The notes under the pieces are model-generated. The model was not told where the DNA came from. It saw only the letters and a list, made by a program, of their open reading frames with translations, and searched no databases. Shown here piece after piece: positions 11,682 to 20,051 of a stretch of 20,358 bases of DNA (the stretch's first letter is position 1; the number at the start of each line of letters is the position of its first letter). Position numbers and translations under genes: made by a program. This DNA comes from a virus, in the IMG/VR virus record IMGVR_UViG_3300031566_000472, positions 1-20,358 of that record; one strand, given 5' to 3'.

Positions 11682-14423
11682 TTATCTACCAAATCCTGGA
11701 TTTGATGTGCCGTCTGCCAGCACTTCGCCTACTAATTTTCCGTCCATTTTAACTTCCATTGAACCAACTTTATCTATTAAAATATCGAATTTTTTCCACC
11801 AATCACCTCTATCTGGAACATTAACTGTAACATTTGGTGTTTGCTCTACTTTTCCTTTTAATGCAATATCTCCAATTTCTTCTAATTTATCCATATCAAG
11901 TTTTGATGTATCTAATATCTTTAGGGCAGCTCCCAATCTTTCAATTGATGTTGCTACAATATTTAATGGGTTAGCTAATTTGGCCAATTCTGATAATGCT
12001 GCCGTTGTTCCCATTAGTTGTAATAGTCCAAACATTCCAAATATTCCAGTCATTCCAAATGCTGCAAGTGCTAATCCTATTAATGATAACCCGCCTGCAA
12101 CTCCTGCTAATTGTGAGAATGTAACTCTTGTAGCTAAATCACCTAAAGATTTTGCAAGCACTGCGAATAATTTACCAAATGCGTCCATTACCGGAATAAA
12201 TGCCTGTAATGCTAAACCTAATACCCATACAGCACCTGCTAAAATTACCATTGCCAATGCACCTAATATAATTGGACCCTGTAAAGTTCCTAATAATAAT
12301 GCTACTACTGTCAATGCTGCGAGTCCGACGACTGCGACTGCTAATGTTTCTGGTAATTTATCATTGTCTGAAAGTACCTTCAGTGCTTGGGCAAATATCC
12401 ATAATGCTCCAGCTATAAGAATCATACCTACAGCCGCTTTTGCCAATCCCCATCCACCGCCTGCTCCTTTACTGAATTTCTCCACACTATTATCAACAAT
12501 ATTAATTCCCTTTGCTACTTTTTCAACGCCCGAAGAAGCAAAGTTTGGTTTGAATATCATATCCATCAACCCACCAGAAATTTTTTGGCCCAGTTTTCCA
12601 ACAAGTGAAGTAACTGCTGTCAAAAGCACTCCGCCAACTATTACTGCAATTGCAATAAGTCCGATTCCAAGTGCTTTGCTTTTTTCAGCAATAGCGGCAA
12701 CCCACTCAGTTATCTGATATAATACATCGAAAACTGGAGATAATGCCATTAATATATTATCCCACATTTTCTTTAATTGCTCTGTCGCAAGTAATCTTTT
12801 ATTGTCATCAAGTAATGATTTTTCATTTACGTCTTGCATATTTTTTAATAATTCTAACCCATCTTTATATTCTTGTTTCTTTTTAGAATCCATACCAGCG
12901 AGAATCTTTTGTTGTTGCAACATATTCCCAAGTTGGTCAACTTCCATTCCTGCAGCCTTTGCTATTGCTTCTTTTTGGAATGGCATCATTGCATTAAATT
13001 CTTCTAAACTTCCAACTTGTTTTAAAACTTCTTTTTGTTGATTTTCTATATCGCCCATAAATGCATAATATCTTGCTGCACTAAAATCTAATTGACGACC
13101 TAATAATACTGATGCCTCTAACTCAGAACCAATACTTGCTTCAAAATCAACCATACTTTTAGCAGATGCGGATGCTTCTTTTATTGATGTGCCCATACGT
13201 CTAAGTTCAATTGCTGCTTTTGCTGCATTTGTAAAACTTCCTTTGAAATATGTTTGTATTTCTTTTGTTGATTGTGCCATATCCTCAAAAACTTTTGCAG
13301 GTGCAATACCACCTAATTTTGCTGCATTTCCAACTACTGCTGCCATTTGTATTGTGGTCGCAGTACTTGCGCCTTTCATAACTTCAAACATTCTTGCAAC
13401 TTTTGCTGCACTCTGCTCGCCTACACCTAAAATTCCAACCATAGCACCAACACCTTCAATCATATCTCGGGTTGCTACATCCATTATCTGAAACTCATTC
13501 ACAATTGCTCCGGTTGCTTTGCCTGCGGCTTCCATATCAAGCCCAAGATTTGACCACTCCCCTGCAACATCTCTGGATACTTTTGCCAATTCCGCAGCAT
13601 CTTTTGCTACAAGTCCAGTTTGGTCACGGATACCTTTCATCACATCTAAATATCTCTTTCCTAACTTGACCATTCCATACAATAAAAGTGAAACTGCACC
13701 AAATACAAGTAACATAGGATTTGCCACTATTGCAGCACCAATACTTTTAAATGCGGATTTTCCAGCTTCACCAATCAATTTAAATCCTCTAACACCTTCT
13801 TCATAAGCTTTTGCCAATTCGGTTTTTATTTTCGTTTCTATATCTTTTTTCATCTTATCCAAATCAAATGCTGCGGATAATAATTTTCCTCCTGGTAATT
13901 TTTCAATCCATCCAATAAGTTTATCGAATGGTTTCATCATATCACGAGCCAAATCCGAAACTGCATCCTTAAATGTTAAAATTAAATTTTCGTTTTCTTT
14001 AACTAATTTTTGTAAATTCTTAACAAAATCTTTATATTGTGATTCTGTTAGTCCGAATTCTGCTTTAATATCCATACCTTTTAATATTGCTTCAATTGCA
14101 TCTTTCACTTTAGCCGGAGATAACCCACCTGCTCCTAATTTTTTTGAGTACAAATCTAAAAAATTTGTATTAAAATTTTCCATTTGTTTTCTTGCGAGCG
14201 ATGCCATTTTACTGCTATCAAACCCTGCGATGCTTTTTGTAGCCTTTTGTAATATTCCTCCCATATCATCAGAAAAATCCTTAGTATCATCTCCAATATT
14301 TTTTGCTGCGTCGGATGCCATCTTGGCAAAGTTACCAATAAACTGCGTTACGGTATCCGTTAATGAATTTAATGCATTTTTAAGAGCGTCAAATTGCTCC
14401 TCTGCGGTTAGTTTTTCTGCCAT
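11682..14423 (-). CDS. Tail tape-measure protein
   Basis: This 913-aa protein has tape-measure character throughout. The N-terminal ~230 residues are amphipathic helix (MAEKLTAEEQFDALKNALNS). A hydrophobic segment at 229-251 (ending LLVFGAVSLLLYG) precedes a long Ala/Lys/Glu-rich helical stretch. Several further hydrophobic segments follow in the C-terminal 350 residues (GLIAIAVIVGGVLLTAV; VGMILIAGALWIFAQAL; LGALAMVILAGAVWVLGLAL). It ends with DGKLVGEVLADG, a common tape-measure ending. By family, it is packed inside the tail tube, sets tube length and may help DNA cross the inner membrane. At roughly 1.5 angstroms per residue, the family rule of thumb, the tail would be up to about 135 nm. 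It lies between the chaperone-type genes and the tube-cap gene. The ATG is preceded by an A/T-only sequence with poor Shine-Dalgarno, two bases after the previous stop, suggesting coupling. Confidence 0.9.
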   Translation of the reverse strand: MAEKLTAEEQFDALKNALNSLTDTVTQFIGNFAKMASDAAKNIGDDTKDFSDDMGGILQKATKSIAGFDSSKMASLARKQMENFNTNFLDLYSKKLGAGGLSPAKVKDAIEAILKGMDIKAEFGLTESQYKDFVKNLQKLVKENENLILTFKDAVSDLARDMMKPFDKLIGWIEKLPGGKLLSAAFDLDKMKKDIETKIKTELAKAYEEGVRGFKLIGEAGKSAFKSIGAAIVANPMLLVFGAVSLLLYGMVKLGKRYLDVMKGIRDQTGLVAKDAAELAKVSRDVAGEWSNLGLDMEAAGKATGAIVNEFQIMDVATRDMIEGVGAMVGILGVGEQSAAKVARMFEVMKGASTATTIQMAAVVGNAAKLGGIAPAKVFEDMAQSTKEIQTYFKGSFTNAAKAAIELRRMGTSIKEASASAKSMVDFEASIGSELEASVLLGRQLDFSAARYYAFMGDIENQQKEVLKQVGSLEEFNAMMPFQKEAIAKAAGMEVDQLGNMLQQQKILAGMDSKKKQEYKDGLELLKNMQDVNEKSLLDDNKRLLATEQLKKMWDNILMALSPVFDVLYQITEWVAAIAEKSKALGIGLIAIAVIVGGVLLTAVTSLVGKLGQKISGGLMDMIFKPNFASSGVEKVAKGINIVDNSVEKFSKGAGGGWGLAKAAVGMILIAGALWIFAQALKVLSDNDKLPETLAVAVVGLAALTVVALLLGTLQGPIILGALAMVILAGAVWVLGLALQAFIPVMDAFGKLFAVLAKSLGDLATRVTFSQLAGVAGGLSLIGLALAAFGMTGIFGMFGLLQLMGTTAALSELAKLANPLNIVATSIERLGAALKILDTSKLDMDKLEEIGDIALKGKVEQTPNVTVNVPDRGDWWKKFDILIDKVGSMEVKMDGKLVGEVLADGTSNPGFGR

Positions 14424-14765: not shown

Positions 14766-14793
14766 AAAAACCCGTTAAAAGTAACGGGTTTTT
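14766..14793 (-). terminator. Rho-independent terminator after the gp26/chaperone unit
   Basis: AAAAACCCGTTA (14766-14777) and TAACGGGTTTTT (14782-14793) form a perfect 12-bp stem with a four-base loop. On the minus strand the G/C core is followed by TTTTTGTTT. The stem begins within the stop codon (TGA, 14795-14793) of the preceding ORF. T-rich sequence follows on the plus strand as well, so it could act in both directions. Confidence 0.88.
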
Positions 14794-15200
14794 CATTTTT
14801 TCTTTGGTGAAGGTCGTCTTTGACTGGCTTTCTGTTTGCTTAATGCGGTTCCTACCTGTGATGGTATTTTTGGAGTCCCACCCGACGATTTGCTTGAGGA
14901 TTTGCTCTTTTCTATCTCTGCATTTTCTTTTTCTTTAGTATCCTTTATTAGTTTTAAACAGTACCTTCTGATATGCATCGGCATATCATATGCTATCTGC
15001 CAATTCCATCCGCCATTACCATAATAACATAATGCAAATAATTCATCATAAACACTTTTTTTATACTGCTCTATTTCAGTAAAATCAAATTCTTGTTCGC
15101 CAGTTTCATTATTTACTGTTTTCTTCGGCTCCAGGCCAAAAAAAGTTTGCGCCCAACGGCATTCTCGTCCTTTCTGTATATCCACAGATTTCACATTCAA
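14793..15200 (-). CDS. Probable +1-frame extension of the gp26-like gene (tail assembly chaperone type)
   Basis: The open frame runs from 15200 to the TGA at 14793 and overlaps the 3' end of the gp26-like gene by 92 bases, in the +1 frame. No ATG occurs upstream of the conserved-looking core; only TTG (15200) and GTG (15194, 15185) are available, with no Shine-Dalgarno. The core at residues 50-84 (YDELFALCYYGNGGWNWQI then AYDMPMHIRRYCLKLI) resembles small proteins encoded after gp26 in T4-like phages. The C-terminus is Lys/Ser-rich and disordered. A T7 run shared by both frames (15138-15144) could let ribosomes slip by +1 or -2 and make a gp26-extension fusion, as in the G/GT chaperone pair between tube and tape-measure genes. 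An independent protein from a TTG/GTG start remains possible. Confidence 0.65.
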   Translation of the reverse strand: MNVKSVDIQKGRECRWAQTFFGLEPKKTVNNETGEQEFDFTEIEQYKKSVYDELFALCYYGNGGWNWQIAYDMPMHIRRYCLKLIKDTKEKENAEIEKSKSSSKSSGGTPKIPSQVGTALSKQKASQRRPSPKKK

Positions 15201-15957
15201 ATAAAAATACTGACTCTATATCTGGACTTATTCTGGACATTTCATCTCTAAATGCTTTTGCATCAATTGCTAACATATTATCAACGAAGTTTTTAATTTC
15301 CAATCTATCATCAATAATGTTAGAATCCTTTGTTTGTACGGATAATAACGATACTCGTATTCTTGTTGTCATTTCAGGTGAAACTAATGTTTTTAAAGAT
15401 TTTTTACTTTGTTTTAATATACTCTCGGACTCTTTAAAATCCCTGCCGTTTAACACTTTAAATGTCAATGTTGCTCCCGATGCTGGCAATGTGAATTGAA
15501 ATTCATTCATGTAAATTTTATCTATTCCTTCAATTTCTTTAGCTTCAAATTCTGATATATCTATTACAACTTTATTTTGCTCTGTGCAAGATGGACATTT
15601 TATTTCAACTGGATACTCTTTGCCATATGCCAAGATTCTTGCTGCAATAAATAATGAATTTTTATCTCCAAGAAGCATGTCATCTATATTAATGGATTTA
15701 TCTACAATTAATGAACTCAAAAATGTATCAATCGCAGAACCTTTCATTATCAGGTTTCTTGATGTTAAAATATCTTCTTCTCTTGCAGTTGGATATTTTA
15801 ATAAAATTTTACCTGATGATAATGGATGTTCTTCTGGATAATACTTGCCTTTACTTGGCAAATCAATTTCTTCGGTAGGTATATCAGCACTAATCCTTCG
15901 TGTTGGTATTTGACCTTTCATAATCTGGTCTTGAATGGTTTTTTCTTCCGGTGTCAT
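15109..15957 (-). CDS. 26: gp26-like baseplate hub / tail assembly protein with zinc-binding CxxC pairs
   Basis: This 282-aa protein matches the T4 gp26 baseplate-hub family as I know it from T4-like phages. It has an N-terminal segment IDLPSKGKYYPEEHPLSSGK (31-50) and the AREEDILTSRNLI region (58-70). CPSC is at 121-124, CEIC at 255-258, and the end reads NFFWP. The four cysteines can form one zinc site. T4 gp26 acts in hub assembly; its position here between tube and tape-measure genes also suits a tail-assembly chaperone. The start is firm: AAAGGAG with six bases to ATG (CAAAGGAGTTATTATG). A hairpin lies upstream at 15989-16011. Its last 92 bases are open in the +1 frame and lead into the next ORF, so a longer frameshift product is likely. 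Confidence 0.82.
   Translation of the reverse strand: MTPEEKTIQDQIMKGQIPTRRISADIPTEEIDLPSKGKYYPEEHPLSSGKILLKYPTAREEDILTSRNLIMKGSAIDTFLSSLIVDKSINIDDMLLGDKNSLFIAARILAYGKEYPVEIKCPSCTEQNKVVIDISEFEAKEIEGIDKIYMNEFQFTLPASGATLTFKVLNGRDFKESESILKQSKKSLKTLVSPEMTTRIRVSLLSVQTKDSNIIDDRLEIKNFVDNMLAIDAKAFRDEMSRISPDIESVFLFECEICGYTERTRMPLGANFFWPGAEENSK
15138..15144 (-). other. T7 slippery run in the gp26/extension overlap
   Basis: On the coding strand the gp26 frame reads AAC TTT TTT TGG here. After a +1 (or -2) slip on the T run the ribosome reads TTT TTT GGC CTG GAG, the frame of the 14793-15200 ORF. The gp26 frame stops 27 bases downstream, at TAA 15111-15109. The run is inside the window open in both frames, where a programmed frameshift must occur. 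Confidence 0.45.
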
Positions 15958-15988
15958 AATAACTCCTTTGTATTTTATTTTAGAAATG

Positions 15989-16031: not shown

Positions 16032-16424
16032 TTATTTTTTTGTTGATTTTTTTGTTGATTTTTTTGTCATTGCTTTAACTGGTTCAATAATTTCAATTAT
16101 CTTAGCGGTAATTTTCAATTTTAGCATTAATCCTTTAATAAATTGGTAAGTAAAAATGCCATTTGATATTAAGCCAATTACTATTGCGTTAAGTATTAAT
16201 GCGAATGTACCAAGTGTTATGGCATTCAATAAACCTAAAACATTTAATAAAATCAAAGCAATTAATATTGCTTCAAACTGATACCAAGAGATGAATTTAA
16301 TTTTGCCGGCAAACCATTCGGACAATTTAGTAATAAATCCGAGTTTTTTTGTATATTCAGTCAATAGTGTTACTACAATTGCTAACAATATTAAACTAAT
16401 TAGATAACCAAGTAATTCAAACAT
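16032..16424 (-). CDS. Small membrane protein, holin-like
   Basis: This 130-aa protein is very hydrophobic. The first membrane segment is about residues 3-22 (FELLGYLISLILLAIVVTLL). A short charged loop with an EWFAGKIKFISW stretch follows, then two nearly continuous segments at 51-69 (EAILIALILLNVLGLLNAI) and 70-90. The end is strongly basic, KKSTKKSTKK. Small size, two or three membrane helices and a Lys-rich C-terminus are what holins look like. Holins permeabilise the inner membrane and time lysis, but no specific holin family is recognised, and it could be another inner-membrane phage protein. The start has AGGAGAATAAATT before ATG and lies 17 bases after the tail-tube stop, so it should be co-transcribed with the tube gene. 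That is an unusual place for a holin. Confidence 0.65.
   Translation of the reverse strand: MFELLGYLISLILLAIVVTLLTEYTKKLGFITKLSEWFAGKIKFISWYQFEAILIALILLNVLGLLNAITLGTFALILNAIVIGLISNGIFTYQFIKGLMLKLKITAKIIEIIEPVKAMTKKSTKKSTKK
16035..16067 (-). repeat. 12-bp tandem repeat encoding the KKST tail
   Basis: The plus-strand unit TTTTTTTGTTGA occurs twice in full (16035-16046, 16047-16058) and once in part (16059-16067). It encodes the C-terminal (KKST)n of the holin-like protein. Unit length is a multiple of three, so gain or loss of a copy changes the basic tail without breaking the frame. Confidence 0.8.
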
Positions 16425-16441: not shown

Positions 16442-16933
16442 TTAATATTCAAGTACTGCGTAATCGTATGCGAGAGTTAATTCTGCCATAACAACATCTG
16501 CTCCTGATGACCAATCTAAGTCACCAAAACTTGCTGCTACAATTAAAGCACCCTTAATTACCCACTGCTCTACAACATCACCAACCGGACCTAAAAGGTT
16601 AAGAGTCAAATCTTTTTTGTAGAAATCTGCATAGCCTCTACGACCTGTTAAAGACTCGTGTCCAAGTCTTACCCATTCCATTACCGCCTGTGCAGCTGAA
16701 GGAACAATTGGGTCATAAAGTGAAATGGTAATGTCCTGCCATTCTCCTTTACCTTGCAATTTTCTCTTGATGTTGATATGGTCAATTGTTATTGTTTCAA
16801 AATTTATTGATGGTCTGTTTGCCATTTTTACCATATAAGCTGGAACATCATTAATATACATAATAAATCTATTTTTTACCTTTGGTTCAAACGGTGTAAA
16901 AAACATTTCATTAGCGTCAAGTATTTTTGCCAT
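16442..16933 (-). CDS. 19: Tail tube protein (T4 gp19-like)
   Basis: This 163-aa protein matches the T4-like tail-tube family in length and pattern. It starts MAKILDANEMFFTPFEPKV, then NRFIMYINDVPAYMVKMANRP (residues 21-41), SINFETITIDHINIKRKLQGK and EWQDITISLYDPI. The end is the strand-rich ADVVMAELTLAYDYAVLEY. Subunits stack as hexameric rings to form the inner tube through which DNA passes. The start is clear: CTGGAGAAACAG before ATG. Two promoter-like motifs (16972-16980 and 17034-17042) precede it in the largest gene-free gap of this block, which would suit one of the most abundant virion proteins. The sheath gene that usually precedes the tube is not in the window; the gene directly upstream is the 994-aa modular protein. 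Confidence 0.92.
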   Translation of the reverse strand: MAKILDANEMFFTPFEPKVKNRFIMYINDVPAYMVKMANRPSINFETITIDHINIKRKLQGKGEWQDITISLYDPIVPSAAQAVMEWVRLGHESLTGRRGYADFYKKDLTLNLLGPVGDVVEQWVIKGALIVAASFGDLDWSSGADVVMAELTLAYDYAVLEY

Positions 16934-17066: not shown

Positions 17067-20051
17067 TTACTCATTTTTAAGGACATTAAATGTCTCTTTT
17101 TTACCGCCAGGATAAGAATACATAAAAATCGATGAAGATGTCAATATAGGCATCTTTAAGTTGCTTACATATTTCTCTCCTTCGCCTGGTTTTACATATG
17201 CTATCGTTACATGTGGTTTATAGTCTTTATGTGTCTCGGTATATTCGAAATTCTGTCTTACTATCTCATTTAACTTATTTAACATTTTAGATTGTACATC
17301 AAATTTCACAACATCAAACATCTTTGTTGAAAATATATCTATCTTAGTTAGTTTAATTGAAATTGGTCTTTTTAATGTATTCAACATTTTCTTTATCCTC
17401 TCAACATCAACTGCTTCACTAAACCCATATAATATGGTTACATGTGGTTCAAATTCGTAACCAAAATCTTGCTGTGCATTATTATATATATCTTCTTCTT
17501 TAACATATTTTTCAACATAATTTTTCCACCATGGAAATTCCAATTTCAACATCAAACATCCGAATTCTGTTTGTATTTCATTTATTTTATTTTCACTTGT
17601 ATGTGTTAATTGATATTGTTGGGCCGGAGAAAGTGTAGATGTCCTTTTTTTAGAACCAACTCCTGTATAAACATCTGGTTTTTTTGCCATTGGACTTAAA
17701 GTGTGTAATTCTTTTCTTTTATTTAACGCATCATAATATAAAGAAGGATTTTTCATTATATTTGGCTTCCAATCAAAAACTGGAATAAAATACGATTCTT
17801 CATAATCGTCATCTCTAAGCCATTTCATAGAATCTTCATAATAGTCCGATGTAACTTTAGGAATATCTATTTTCCAAGACGAATTAATTTTAATATTTTT
17901 ATCATTATATTTGTTTATACTATCTATCATATCCAAAAATTGTTGCTTTGTATCTGTATAATCCCATAAAGATATAATTTTTTCATTCACCCATACCCTG
18001 CCAGAAATTGAACCTCCTTTCTTAGAATAAATTCTAATTGTTTGAATCCTATCATGAAATTGTCCAAACTCTGCAAAATAAGTTTTTTGAGATTCAATTC
18101 TATAAATAAAAGGTATAGCATCTTTATCTATTGCACTCAGCTTTTTCTGTTTTCCATTATCAATATAACGAACTTCATCTGCCCATTCTTTTATATTTTC
18201 ACTTGTTGATTTCATTTGGTGCCTCTGGGTTGTTGTTAGTTTTGCTGGTAATTTTTTTGAACCTATGCCAGGCGATACATCCGAACTTTTTGCAACGGGA
18301 GATAACATATGTTTCAATTGCATTGATTTCTTTTTTCGTTTTGATTTTGGAGCATTGGATATCAACCCCGCATCATATTTATCTATAGGTATATAAACTG
18401 ATTTGGTAGCCTTGCCGGAATACATAGCCGCATCATAATTTTTAACATGTAATTTTCCTCCCCGGTATTTAATATATTTTTTAGATAATAATTCGCTTGC
18501 GATTTCTATCTTCCAACTGCTATTTATATTCAAATCTGGATATTCATTATTCAAATCTTTTATTATCTTTTGTAATCTACTCTTACTTTCGGGATATCCC
18601 CAAAATGAAATCGCCTTTTGGTCAGCAAAAACACGACCAGCATAATTGTTAGTTAAGTCCGAATCATCGAATGTATCTATACCAATAAATCTATGTGCAG
18701 TTTCATATGACGATTTTAATTCGCCATCTACATACCCAAATGCTATTGAATTTTTGGTAGGATATCCATATATTCTTCCTTTATATTTAATACCATCTGC
18801 CCACTCATTCATGCTTTCTGATGTGGATTTCATTTGGTGCCTCTGCGTTGCTGTCATATCAACAGGTCTCTTTTTAGAACCTATATCACCAACTACATCA
18901 GATTTTTTTGCAAACGGACTTCTCATGTGCTGTTGCATTTGAGTATCCTTTTCTTTTTTATATTCGCTTGGATTTTTCATTATATCTGGAGTCCAATAAA
19001 ATATTGGAATCAAATAAGATTCTATTTCTCTGAACCCCATTGCCTTAGCTTCTCTCGAAGCATCATTAGCTATACTTGTCCAGTTTTTTCCCATAAAATT
19101 TATTGCTACCATTGGTATATCCATTTTCCAAGATGCATCTATTTTTCCTAATTTATTTTTTTGCATCTCATCACTTAATTTTTTTAACATTGCATTATAC
19201 ATTGCCTTAGTGTCTGGATATTCCCATACTGAAAGTACCTTTTCTTTTGTCCAAATTCTTCCTGGTATATAAACTTTATGTGTGAAATTTCCTTTTGGAA
19301 CACTACTATGTGTGTTTGATTCTTCTCCAAAACTTACAGAATAATTTTTTATATTATAAAAAAATGGATATGAACCTGGGTCTTCATTATCTAAATCTAA
19401 TTCACCACTACTTACCATATCTGCCCATTCATTTAAATGGTCTTTTTTAGGTGTAGTTCCAACTGGTCCATACATATGTTTCCATTCATATCTGGTATCA
19501 CCCTTTGTGAGCCAACCTTCGTTTTGTAATTCTTTCATTGCGGTATCATAACTATCTTTGCCAAAAAATTCGCTGATGTAATTTTTATAGCCATGCCAAT
19601 TATTTAGATTTACCGAACGACTTGGCATCTGTATAAAAATATCTCTTATTGCTGCCTTTGCATATTCTTTTATATCATTATCTGGTAATGAAACTATTGC
19701 TCCATATGATTCTGTTAGTTTGGCGAGCCTTCTCCTAATAATAGTTTCTGCTATTGCCCAATCCGGAATAGACTCTCCGGCATTCTTATCATTAATTATA
19801 TCATATACAAATTCAATTCTACTTTTATAGAAATTCATTCCATTTTTATATAATGCTTTTACTTGACCTTTCACAGCTTTATACAAAGATGTGTCTCTTT
19901 CATGTTTATCTTCCAAAAATTGTAATAATTCTTTCAATTCTGGGATTTCCATATTCCATGCAATTTTTAAAAATTCAACATCATTCATTTTATTCATTTC
20001 AATGAATTTATCATTTTTCATATCTTCTGATATTAAATTTTTAAGTTTCAT
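17067..20051 (-). CDS. Modular 994-aa protein: three repeat modules plus C-terminal 2H phosphoesterase
   Basis: The C-terminal ~165 residues are a 2H phosphoesterase (LigT / 2'-5' RNA ligase-like fold): EPHVTILYGF (His870, Thr872) and KPHVTIAYV (His947, Thr949) are the two HxT motifs, 77 residues apart. Relatives act on 2',3'-cyclic or 2'-5'/3'-5'-linked nucleotides, including the phage anti-CBASS enzyme Acb1. Residues 10-208 form a helical region. Residues 209-416, 417-622 and 623-825 are three diverged copies of one module, each with a (G/A)R(I/V)(W/F) strand, a SVWEYPDTK-like segment and an ASWKMDIP-like strand. Each module ends with a linker (SPxAKxxDV...GSKK...QRHQ...STSE) and begins after (L/M/I)xE-WAD. 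The start MKLKNLISE resembles T4 capsid-targeting peptides, so it may be a packaged, protease-processed protein; this is inferred. Start: AGGA six bases before ATG. Confidence 0.85.
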   Translation of the reverse strand: MKLKNLISEDMKNDKFIEMNKMNDVEFLKIAWNMEIPELKELLQFLEDKHERDTSLYKAVKGQVKALYKNGMNFYKSRIEFVYDIINDKNAGESIPDWAIAETIIRRRLAKLTESYGAIVSLPDNDIKEYAKAAIRDIFIQMPSRSVNLNNWHGYKNYISEFFGKDSYDTAMKELQNEGWLTKGDTRYEWKHMYGPVGTTPKKDHLNEWADMVSSGELDLDNEDPGSYPFFYNIKNYSVSFGEESNTHSSVPKGNFTHKVYIPGRIWTKEKVLSVWEYPDTKAMYNAMLKKLSDEMQKNKLGKIDASWKMDIPMVAINFMGKNWTSIANDASREAKAMGFREIESYLIPIFYWTPDIMKNPSEYKKEKDTQMQQHMRSPFAKKSDVVGDIGSKKRPVDMTATQRHQMKSTSESMNEWADGIKYKGRIYGYPTKNSIAFGYVDGELKSSYETAHRFIGIDTFDDSDLTNNYAGRVFADQKAISFWGYPESKSRLQKIIKDLNNEYPDLNINSSWKIEIASELLSKKYIKYRGGKLHVKNYDAAMYSGKATKSVYIPIDKYDAGLISNAPKSKRKKKSMQLKHMLSPVAKSSDVSPGIGSKKLPAKLTTTQRHQMKSTSENIKEWADEVRYIDNGKQKKLSAIDKDAIPFIYRIESQKTYFAEFGQFHDRIQTIRIYSKKGGSISGRVWVNEKIISLWDYTDTKQQFLDMIDSINKYNDKNIKINSSWKIDIPKVTSDYYEDSMKWLRDDDYEESYFIPVFDWKPNIMKNPSLYYDALNKRKELHTLSPMAKKPDVYTGVGSKKRTSTLSPAQQYQLTHTSENKINEIQTEFGCLMLKLEFPWWKNYVEKYVKEEDIYNNAQQDFGYEFEPHVTILYGFSEAVDVERIKKMLNTLKRPISIKLTKIDIFSTKMFDVVKFDVQSKMLNKLNEIVRQNFEYTETHKDYKPHVTIAYVKPGEGEKYVSNLKMPILTSSSIFMYSYPGGKKETFNVLKNE
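17571..17699 (-). repeat. Linker repeat copy 3 in the 994-aa protein
   Basis: Residues 785-827: LSPMAKKPDVYTGVGSKKR, then LSPAQQYQLTHTSENKINE. It joins the third module to the 2H domain and is the most diverged of the three copies (QQYQLTHTSE in place of QRHQMKSTSE; no WAD after the closing INE). Confidence 0.8.
18174..18305 (-). repeat. Linker repeat copy 2 in the 994-aa protein
   Basis: Residues 583-626: LSPVAKSSDVSPGIGSKKLP, then TTTQRHQMKSTSENIKEWADE. It shares a 20-base identical stretch (plus strand GATTTCATTTGGTGCCTCTG, 18208-18227) with copy 1, which lies 618 bases (206 codons) away. That is one module length. Confidence 0.85.
18789..18923 (-). repeat. Linker repeat copy 1 in the 994-aa protein
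   Basis: Residues 377-421: RSPFAKKSDVVGDIGSKKRP, then ATQRHQMKSTSESMNEWADG. The 20 bases at 18826-18845 are identical to those in copy 2, suggesting that the modules arose by tandem duplication and that this joint is under tight constraint or recent exchange. Confidence 0.85.

Follow-up and report, generated by a model that had tools for sequence, protein, structure and literature searches.

Two overlapping reading frames on a viral DNA fragment, hereafter ORF A and ORF B, very probably constitute a single tail assembly chaperone gene, whose product would be made in a short form and, after a +1 slip of the ribosome near the end of ORF A, in a long form. This reading draws on the frames themselves, the conservation of the extension, the absence of start codons, selection on silent bases at the slip site and the position of the gene. 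The fragment, referred to as the window in the rest of the text, is the whole stretch of 20,358 nt that we analysed (IMG/VR record IMGVR_UViG_3300031566_000472, positions 1 to 20,358). The features needed below, all on its minus strand, are as follows:

16442..16933, minus strand: tail tube protein, gp19-like, upstream of A
16032-16424, minus strand: membrane-protein-like small ORF with a KKSTKKSTKK tail
15963..15969, minus strand: Shine-Dalgarno-like AAAGGAG of ORF A, 5 nt upstream of its ATG
15109..15957, minus strand: ORF A, putative short chaperone form (G / TAC-N), PF12322/T4 gp26-family, 282 aa
14793..15215, minus strand: B frame, open stop to stop, +1 relative to A
14793-15200, minus strand: ORF B as listed, start TTG, in the +1 frame of A
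15136..15147, minus strand: candidate shift site AAC TTT TTT TGG (A frame), codons F272 and F273 followed by U, with a non-U base before the run
15138..15144, minus strand: T7 run on the coding strand
14796..15137, minus strand: B extension after the predicted +1 shift (GLEPKK...KKK), 114 aa
14426..14707, minus strand: 93-aa ORF between B and the tape-measure-like gene
11682..14423, minus strand: 913-aa ORF in tape-measure position, downstream of B

ORF A starts with an ATG and matched PF12322, the T4 baseplate protein family (E 9.6e-14, 52 bits for a gathering score of 24.5), as well as phrog_150 (baseplate hub, E 6e-18), in agreement with the gp26-like character that the initial annotation had given it. 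Along the minus strand the order is tail tube, membrane-like ORF, A, B, 93-aa ORF and 913-aa ORF. The proposed location of the pair between tail tube and tape measure genes is borne out upstream by the gp19-like protein (PF06841, E 2e-7; phrog_4542, E 9e-29) and downstream by the 913-aa ORF, assigned by length and position, which gave no convincing E-value with any Pfam or PHROG family. No convincing Pfam or PHROG match was obtained either for the ORF at 16032-16424 between the tail tube gene and A. The 93-aa ORF matched phrog_2717, a family of no assigned function (E 0.0017), and looks unrelated to the ORF of 116-118 aa, ending in FERRTGI.WP.K, that two relatives carry between B and their tape-measure-like ORF (L001:4031-4387 and L003:4024-4374). 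Elsewhere in the window, translation of a 994-aa ORF (17067-20051) revealed repeated segments, LSPMAKK..DV..GIGSKK...QRHQMKSTSE occurring three times in similar form.

ORF B returned no Pfam or PHROG match at E up to 1. Recomputing its overlap with A reproduced the +1 frame and the 92 bases initially reported, counted from the TTG of B; from stop to stop the overlap spans 107 nt. The reported lack of an ATG ahead of the conserved core and of a Shine-Dalgarno sequence also held: the only start codons (ATG/GTG/TTG) ahead of the core are the TTG/GTG codons at 15200, 15194 and 15185, none preceded by a Shine-Dalgarno sequence, and the first ATG falls within the core (MPMHIRR). The T7 run was exactly where it had been placed, and it forms the sole TTTTTTTGG of the window, a single occurrence in 20 kb that lies within the A/B overlap. 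Runs of seven or more T numbered 2 on the coding (minus) strand and 27 on the plus strand of the window. Around the site the coding strand reads GCA AAC TTT TTT TGG CCT, with F272 at 15144-15142, F273 at 15141-15139 and W274 at 15138-15136. Translation across a +1 slip at this point yielded the junction NFFGLEPK, as had been predicted, and a putative A-B fusion product of 387 aa.

AlphaFold2 modelled ORF A with a mean pLDDT of 90.7 and B alone with a mean pLDDT of 84.6, the latter with helices at 23-42, 49-54 and 57-87. In BFVD the A model retrieved 63 entries at E up to 0.001, phage baseplate-hub-type models of which SP-15 was the best (E 1.5e-18). Among solved structures, Foldseek gave no match at E 0.001. 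Second place, both in the Foldseek list (E 0.72, weak) and in the VIA list (second of 988 chains, Z 4.7, 96 aligned, rmsd 6.4, a weak resemblance), went to 2ob9, the tail assembly chaperone of HK97; the top VIA entry was 3fgx (Z 5.8), a Bacillus protein that is uncharacterised. The ranking of 2ob9 does no more than hint at a chaperone-like fold for A. When the A profile or T4 gp26 was searched against the sequences of solved structures, only zinc-finger or chance matches came back.

Relatives of A were collected from IMG/VR by a single-sequence search (3 loci), by a window-like alignment (best 80 of 596) and by a Firmicute-phage-like alignment (best 80 of 178). A search of GenBank phages added 17 records; we examined 9 of them first and 2 later. 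Among these 175 sequences, 173 contained A, the other two being the window's own copy on the opposite strand and T4; leaving out three contigs that end inside A gave 170 loci. A profile of B was seeded on 12 of these loci and iterated on the same set. Its first pass gave 162 candidates at E<1e-3, and after iteration 167 of the 170 loci carried a B-like extension out of frame after A at that threshold, 98 in the +1 frame and 69 in the -1 frame. The three remaining loci are +1 with weaker values (L117, E 0.0014; L114, E 0.0062; L109, E 0.03), and none of the 170 matched B in both frames (the second frame of L071 reached E 0.4). Removing exact duplicates left 94 +1 and 51 -1 loci; 90 and 37 representatives, respectively, remained once loci with 80% identity in the last 150 residues of A had been clustered. 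The B frame stayed open to +150 nt in all 123 representatives reaching that far, the third frame in 14 and the A frame in 0, a count that is partly circular, the B profile having served to define the classes. A tail tube gene lies upstream in 79/88 and a long ORF downstream in 66/67 of the +1 representatives with enough flank; the corresponding figures for the -1 representatives, 4/37 and 10/31, count against the chaperone reading.

The +1 arrangement also occurs in six cultured phages, Flavobacterium immuto, Microcystis Mel-JY01, Bacillus SP-15, Listeria LIS04, Streptococcus GXN1 and Rhodothermus RM378. Their records bear no frameshift annotation: those of immuto, Mel-JY01, SP-15 and RM378 list B as a separate small gene with an internal or TTG/GTG start, and those of GXN1 and LIS04 leave it unannotated. 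Since the long form is either unannotated or mistaken for a tiny gene in these relatives, many genomes probably have this tail gene misannotated. Gene decay, or a mistake in sequencing or assembling the homopolymer, deserved consideration in that a one-base change in run length would bring A and B into one frame; the relatives refute it, with the arrangement recurring in 90 diverse representatives and in cultured phages and the stop codon of A always falling 15-33 nt past the first codon of the +1 site, and we rejected this explanation as having practically no chance of being right.

We then compared codon choice at the site, denoting the equivalents of F272 and F273 as F1 and F2. Among the 90 +1 representatives, F1 is TTT in 85 and TTC in 5, F2 is TTT in 86, CTT in 3 and CTA in 1, and the following codon is TGG in 61, TAC in 13, CGN in 13 and another codon in 3; CTT followed by T occurs in 3/90. 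The 37 -1 representatives instead read U_UUU_UUC, with TTT at F1 in 34, TTC at F2 in 36 and TTC as the next codon in 33. Elsewhere in A, TTT makes up 75% of Phe codons in the +1 class and 56% in the -1 class, and the binomial probabilities of the observed bias, which ignore kinship, are 1.7e-6 (F1) and 3e-7 (F2) for the +1 class and 4e-12 (F2) for the -1 class. The base before F1 separates the two classes: it is T in 37/37 -1 representatives, where T makes up 34% of third positions in A, and in 1/90 +1 representatives as against 37%, the window being among the 89 with another base. One reading that accounts for this is that a U before U6 would create the -1 heptamer, needed by the -1 class and to be avoided by the +1 class. 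The window, with B in the +1 frame and a C before the run, lacks a canonical -1 X_XXY_YYZ heptamer.

The codon before the +1 site is itself strongly biased, with GAC in 10/10, AAC in 13/14, GGG in 13/14, CAG in 8/8 and GAG in 18/24 cases; the same synonyms account for 22, 30, 9, 24 and 25%, respectively, elsewhere in A. At codon 15145-15147 and its equivalents in the 90 +1 representatives, the preference for a G/C ending is well above what avoidance of U would give, as seen for GGG. In three of the -1 loci, L050, L055 and L062, the site reads AAT TTC TTC TGG CCT TCC and its heptamer is not canonical. Looking for stimulators of the +1 slip, we found none in downstream folding (mean z -0.42 and -0.56) or in Shine-Dalgarno-like motifs upstream of the site (26/90 versus 20.3 in shuffles). 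In the -1 class, folding downstream (+14..+104) is somewhat stronger than in shuffled sequences (mean z -1.28, 35% below -2), and a stimulatory stem is possible there.

The initial annotation had suggested checking whether relatives keep the T run. Most +1 relatives do, but the T6 run is absent from 9/90 +1 representatives, which have TTC TTT, TTT CTT or TTT CTA, indicating that the run as such is dispensable. This bears on transcriptional slippage, by which RNA polymerase would stutter on the T7 run present in the window and in most +1 relatives and produce mixed mRNAs. Besides failing to account for the nine members without T6, such slippage would have no need for a preceding base that separates +1 from -1, and what is fixed in the -1 class is TTT TTC, not a longer run; we regard it as highly improbable.

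The same nine sites bear on the direction of the slip. A -2 slip would also lead into the frame of B, with an extra Phe (NFFFGL), and has a precedent in phage Mu according to the part of Atkins et al. 2016 (PMC5009743) that deals with it; re-pairing of the Phe-tRNA fits both directions in 81/90 +1 representatives, including the window, whose own T7 run permits both. When only the Phe-tRNA is counted, however, the nine pair for +1 only and no representative pairs for -2 only. With TTC TTT, present in five of the nine, the tRNA would land on UCU after a -2 slip; at CTT, a Leu-tRNA could in principle re-pair for -2 with a G.U pair, which makes the CTT cases weaker than the five TTC cases. Since CUU_U and UUU_U are in addition +1 shift codons described in PMC5009743, in the portion on such codons, we favour +1 over -2 and consider the -2 slip unlikely.

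Could B instead be a separate protein, made by coupled re-initiation or from an upstream TTG/GTG? TTG/GTG codons do exist in the overlap of the window, where B lacks a Shine-Dalgarno sequence. A stop 8 nt or less ahead of F1 closes the B frame in 40/90 +1 representatives (2-8 nt ahead of the site) and in 16/37 -1 representatives, making the use of an upstream start impossible in them. From the upstream stop to site+9 there is no ATG, GTG or TTG in 42/90 +1 and 32/37 -1 representatives, and no ATG in 69/90 and 37/37, respectively. L003 and RM378 are clear single cases of B without an independent start; L007, with an ATG 8 nt ahead of its site, counts against. Independent initiation also leaves the selection on silent bases at the site unaccounted for.

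Re-initiation also finds arguments among the cyanophage/pelagiphage-like loci, which we examined as a separate set (best 80 of 587). B lies in the -1 frame in 78/80 of these, 2 being unclassified, and 73 unique classified loci were retained. A B-frame ATG close to the stop of A is present in 44 of the 73 and any start in 59, leaving 29 without an ATG and 14 without a start. All 73 have T before the site, 72 have TTT TTC, and all keep T_TTT_TT(C/T). The ATG is therefore not conserved while the slip site is, and re-initiation would be possible only in part of the group. The initial annotation had regarded relatives with an ATG and a Shine-Dalgarno sequence of their own for B, and no overlap, as refuting a frameshift; relatives with an ATG for B close to the stop of A do exist, in KVP40 and S-PM2 (both annotated with B as its own gene) and in the 44 cyanophage-like loci, but no such start is conserved in the +1 class. 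Given the conservation of the site, the closed B frames and the +1 members lacking T6, we rejected both re-initiation, which has a very small probability, and transcriptional slippage, which has a smaller one still.

Selection on silent bases, combined with many genomes in which no start codon is possible, supports programmed ribosomal frameshifting, and the comparative evidence for the proposed joining of a gp26-like gene to a chaperone extension is strong. We infer from these sequence comparisons that the slip is translational and in the +1 direction. The majority of ribosomes would terminate at the stop of A and release the short form, and a minority would slip +1 with the Phe tRNA on UUU (F272 or F273, UUU_U) before UGG, then read GGC CUG GAG and onwards to give the 387-aa long form, with B as a helical C-terminal domain. 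On the model of lambda G/GT, the role of A would be to coat the tape measure protein and that of B to recruit tail tube subunits.

To place other phages, we searched 13 phage records with PF12322. Ten matched, with two genes in T4 and one each in S-PM2, HTVC008M, KVP40, ViI, phiW-14, RaK2, SP-15, RAS14 and RM378; immuto and Mel-JY01, in which A was found by sequence, and phage G, in which none was found, were missed. A B-like stretch follows A in the -1 frame in S-PM2, HTVC008M, KVP40, ViI, phiW-14 and RaK2, recognised by eye in ViI and phiW-14, where the profile signal is weak; XacN1 and Atu_ph07 are -1 too, by eye. The sites are TCT TTT TTC in S-PM2, AGT TTT TTT in HTVC008M, GAT TTT TTC in KVP40 and phiW-14 and CGT TTT TTC in RaK2; that of ViI, GAA ATT TTC, is not canonical. 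Profiles of B from window-like and other loci matched the -1 extensions of HTVC008M, KVP40, S-PM2 and RaK2 (E 4e-10 to 5e-4 among 944 ORFs).

T4 itself carries the two forms as two genes, both with the A domain. PF12322 covers residues 1-206 of the 208 aa of gp26 and 1-201 of the 249 aa of gp51, leaving about 48 aa of gp51 past the domain that resemble B. The C-terminal part of gp51 thus corresponds to B in place, and visibly in sequence in RB43, whose gp51 ends in an in-frame B-like stretch (by eye). The B profiles used above did not match T4 gp51 among the same 944 ORFs; a three-sequence T4-like B profile gave weak matches to T4 gp51 (E 0.0036) and phiW-14 (E 0.029). Aligning A rows together with B rows gave visible misalignment, and that alignment was discarded. 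The window has one PF12322 gene, A, and differs from the T4-type arrangement of a separate gene with an in-frame extension, although its record is a 20,358-base fragment and a second copy may lie elsewhere. A quick tree of 135 A sequences placed gp26 and gp51 as sisters (SH-aLRT 93), an unsure grouping given the long branches. Mapping the labels +1, -1 and two-gene on this tree required 5 changes, at least 3 of them forced by well supported branches for +1.

These observations make it fairly probable that the direction depends mainly on which base precedes the Phe pair, U giving the -1 heptamer U_UUU_UUY and another base, preferably in a G/C-ending codon, giving +1 on UUU_U before a sense codon, with no stop codon, Shine-Dalgarno sequence or clear RNA structure, that direction switched at least three times, and that T4 exchanged the slip for gene duplication. 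With +1 and -1 sites on near-identical codons, the family is a direct test bed for frameshift direction; if this account is true, it would provide a natural series for testing the determinants of direction. It also offers a route from a frameshifted single gene to T4 genes 26 and 51.

Part of this picture is already known, namely the class of system, the link of gp26/gp51 to chaperones and the poly-T -1 sites in such genes, so the connection between gp26-type proteins and frameshifted chaperones made by the initial annotation holds but is not new. Annotators of KVP40 and cyanophages already label B 'gp51', and the KVP40 record likens its B-like gene to the C-terminus of T4 gp51. Vladimirov, Gautam and Davidson (2022, Virology 566:9-15) reportedly identified the tail assembly chaperone genes of T4-like phages. 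Passages of PMC10885494 and PMC12846349 credit these chaperones to Vladimirov et al. 2022, and a PRFect passage citing the same work describes some T4-like phages in which a short gene accompanies a fused long one. The relevant portions of Sullivan et al. 2010 (PMC3037559) and of a T4 tail review (PMC3004832) describe, respectively, cyanophage and marine vibriophage gp51 without the first ~200 residues, and T4 gp26 and gp51 as hub assembly chaperones. The elements that seem to be new are the +1 variant and its wide occurrence, the use of release factor 2-like shift codons before sense codons and the repeated switching of direction. Neither the +1 form in the gp26 family nor direction switching is described in the open-access literature that we searched; Vladimirov et al. 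2022 may describe +1 cases.

Among known systems, the poly-T -1 frameshifts reported for tail chaperone genes of Vandenendeviridae, Andersonviridae and T4-like phages, as outlined in part of PMC12846349, resemble ours in that one locus, situated upstream of the tape measure gene, encodes both a short and a long chaperone, with a T-run shift near the end of the short ORF, but they shift at GTTTTT, whereas the window would shift +1 at UUU_U with a non-U base before the run. Release factor 2 (prfB) offers a likeness in its shift codons, CUU_U being conserved and UUU_U used in a minority of species (PMC5009743, section on these codons), and the window has UUU_U. It differs in that its A site holds a stop codon and a Shine-Dalgarno stimulator lies close upstream; a sense codon (UGG, UAC or CGN) takes that place in the +1 class, with UGG in the window, and no such stimulator was found. 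According to the tail chaperone portion of PMC5009743, tailed phages differ in direction, using -1, -2 or +1, and the short/long pair of the window resembles those of lambda G/GT, Mu and HSTV-2. HSTV-2, an archaeal myovirus, is the +1 tail chaperone case named there ('very likely'), and the window differs from it in that A is a PF12322 protein. With G/GT-type genes in general, the A/B pair has in common its gene position, an overlapping ORF without a start of its own and a conserved site at the end of the first ORF.
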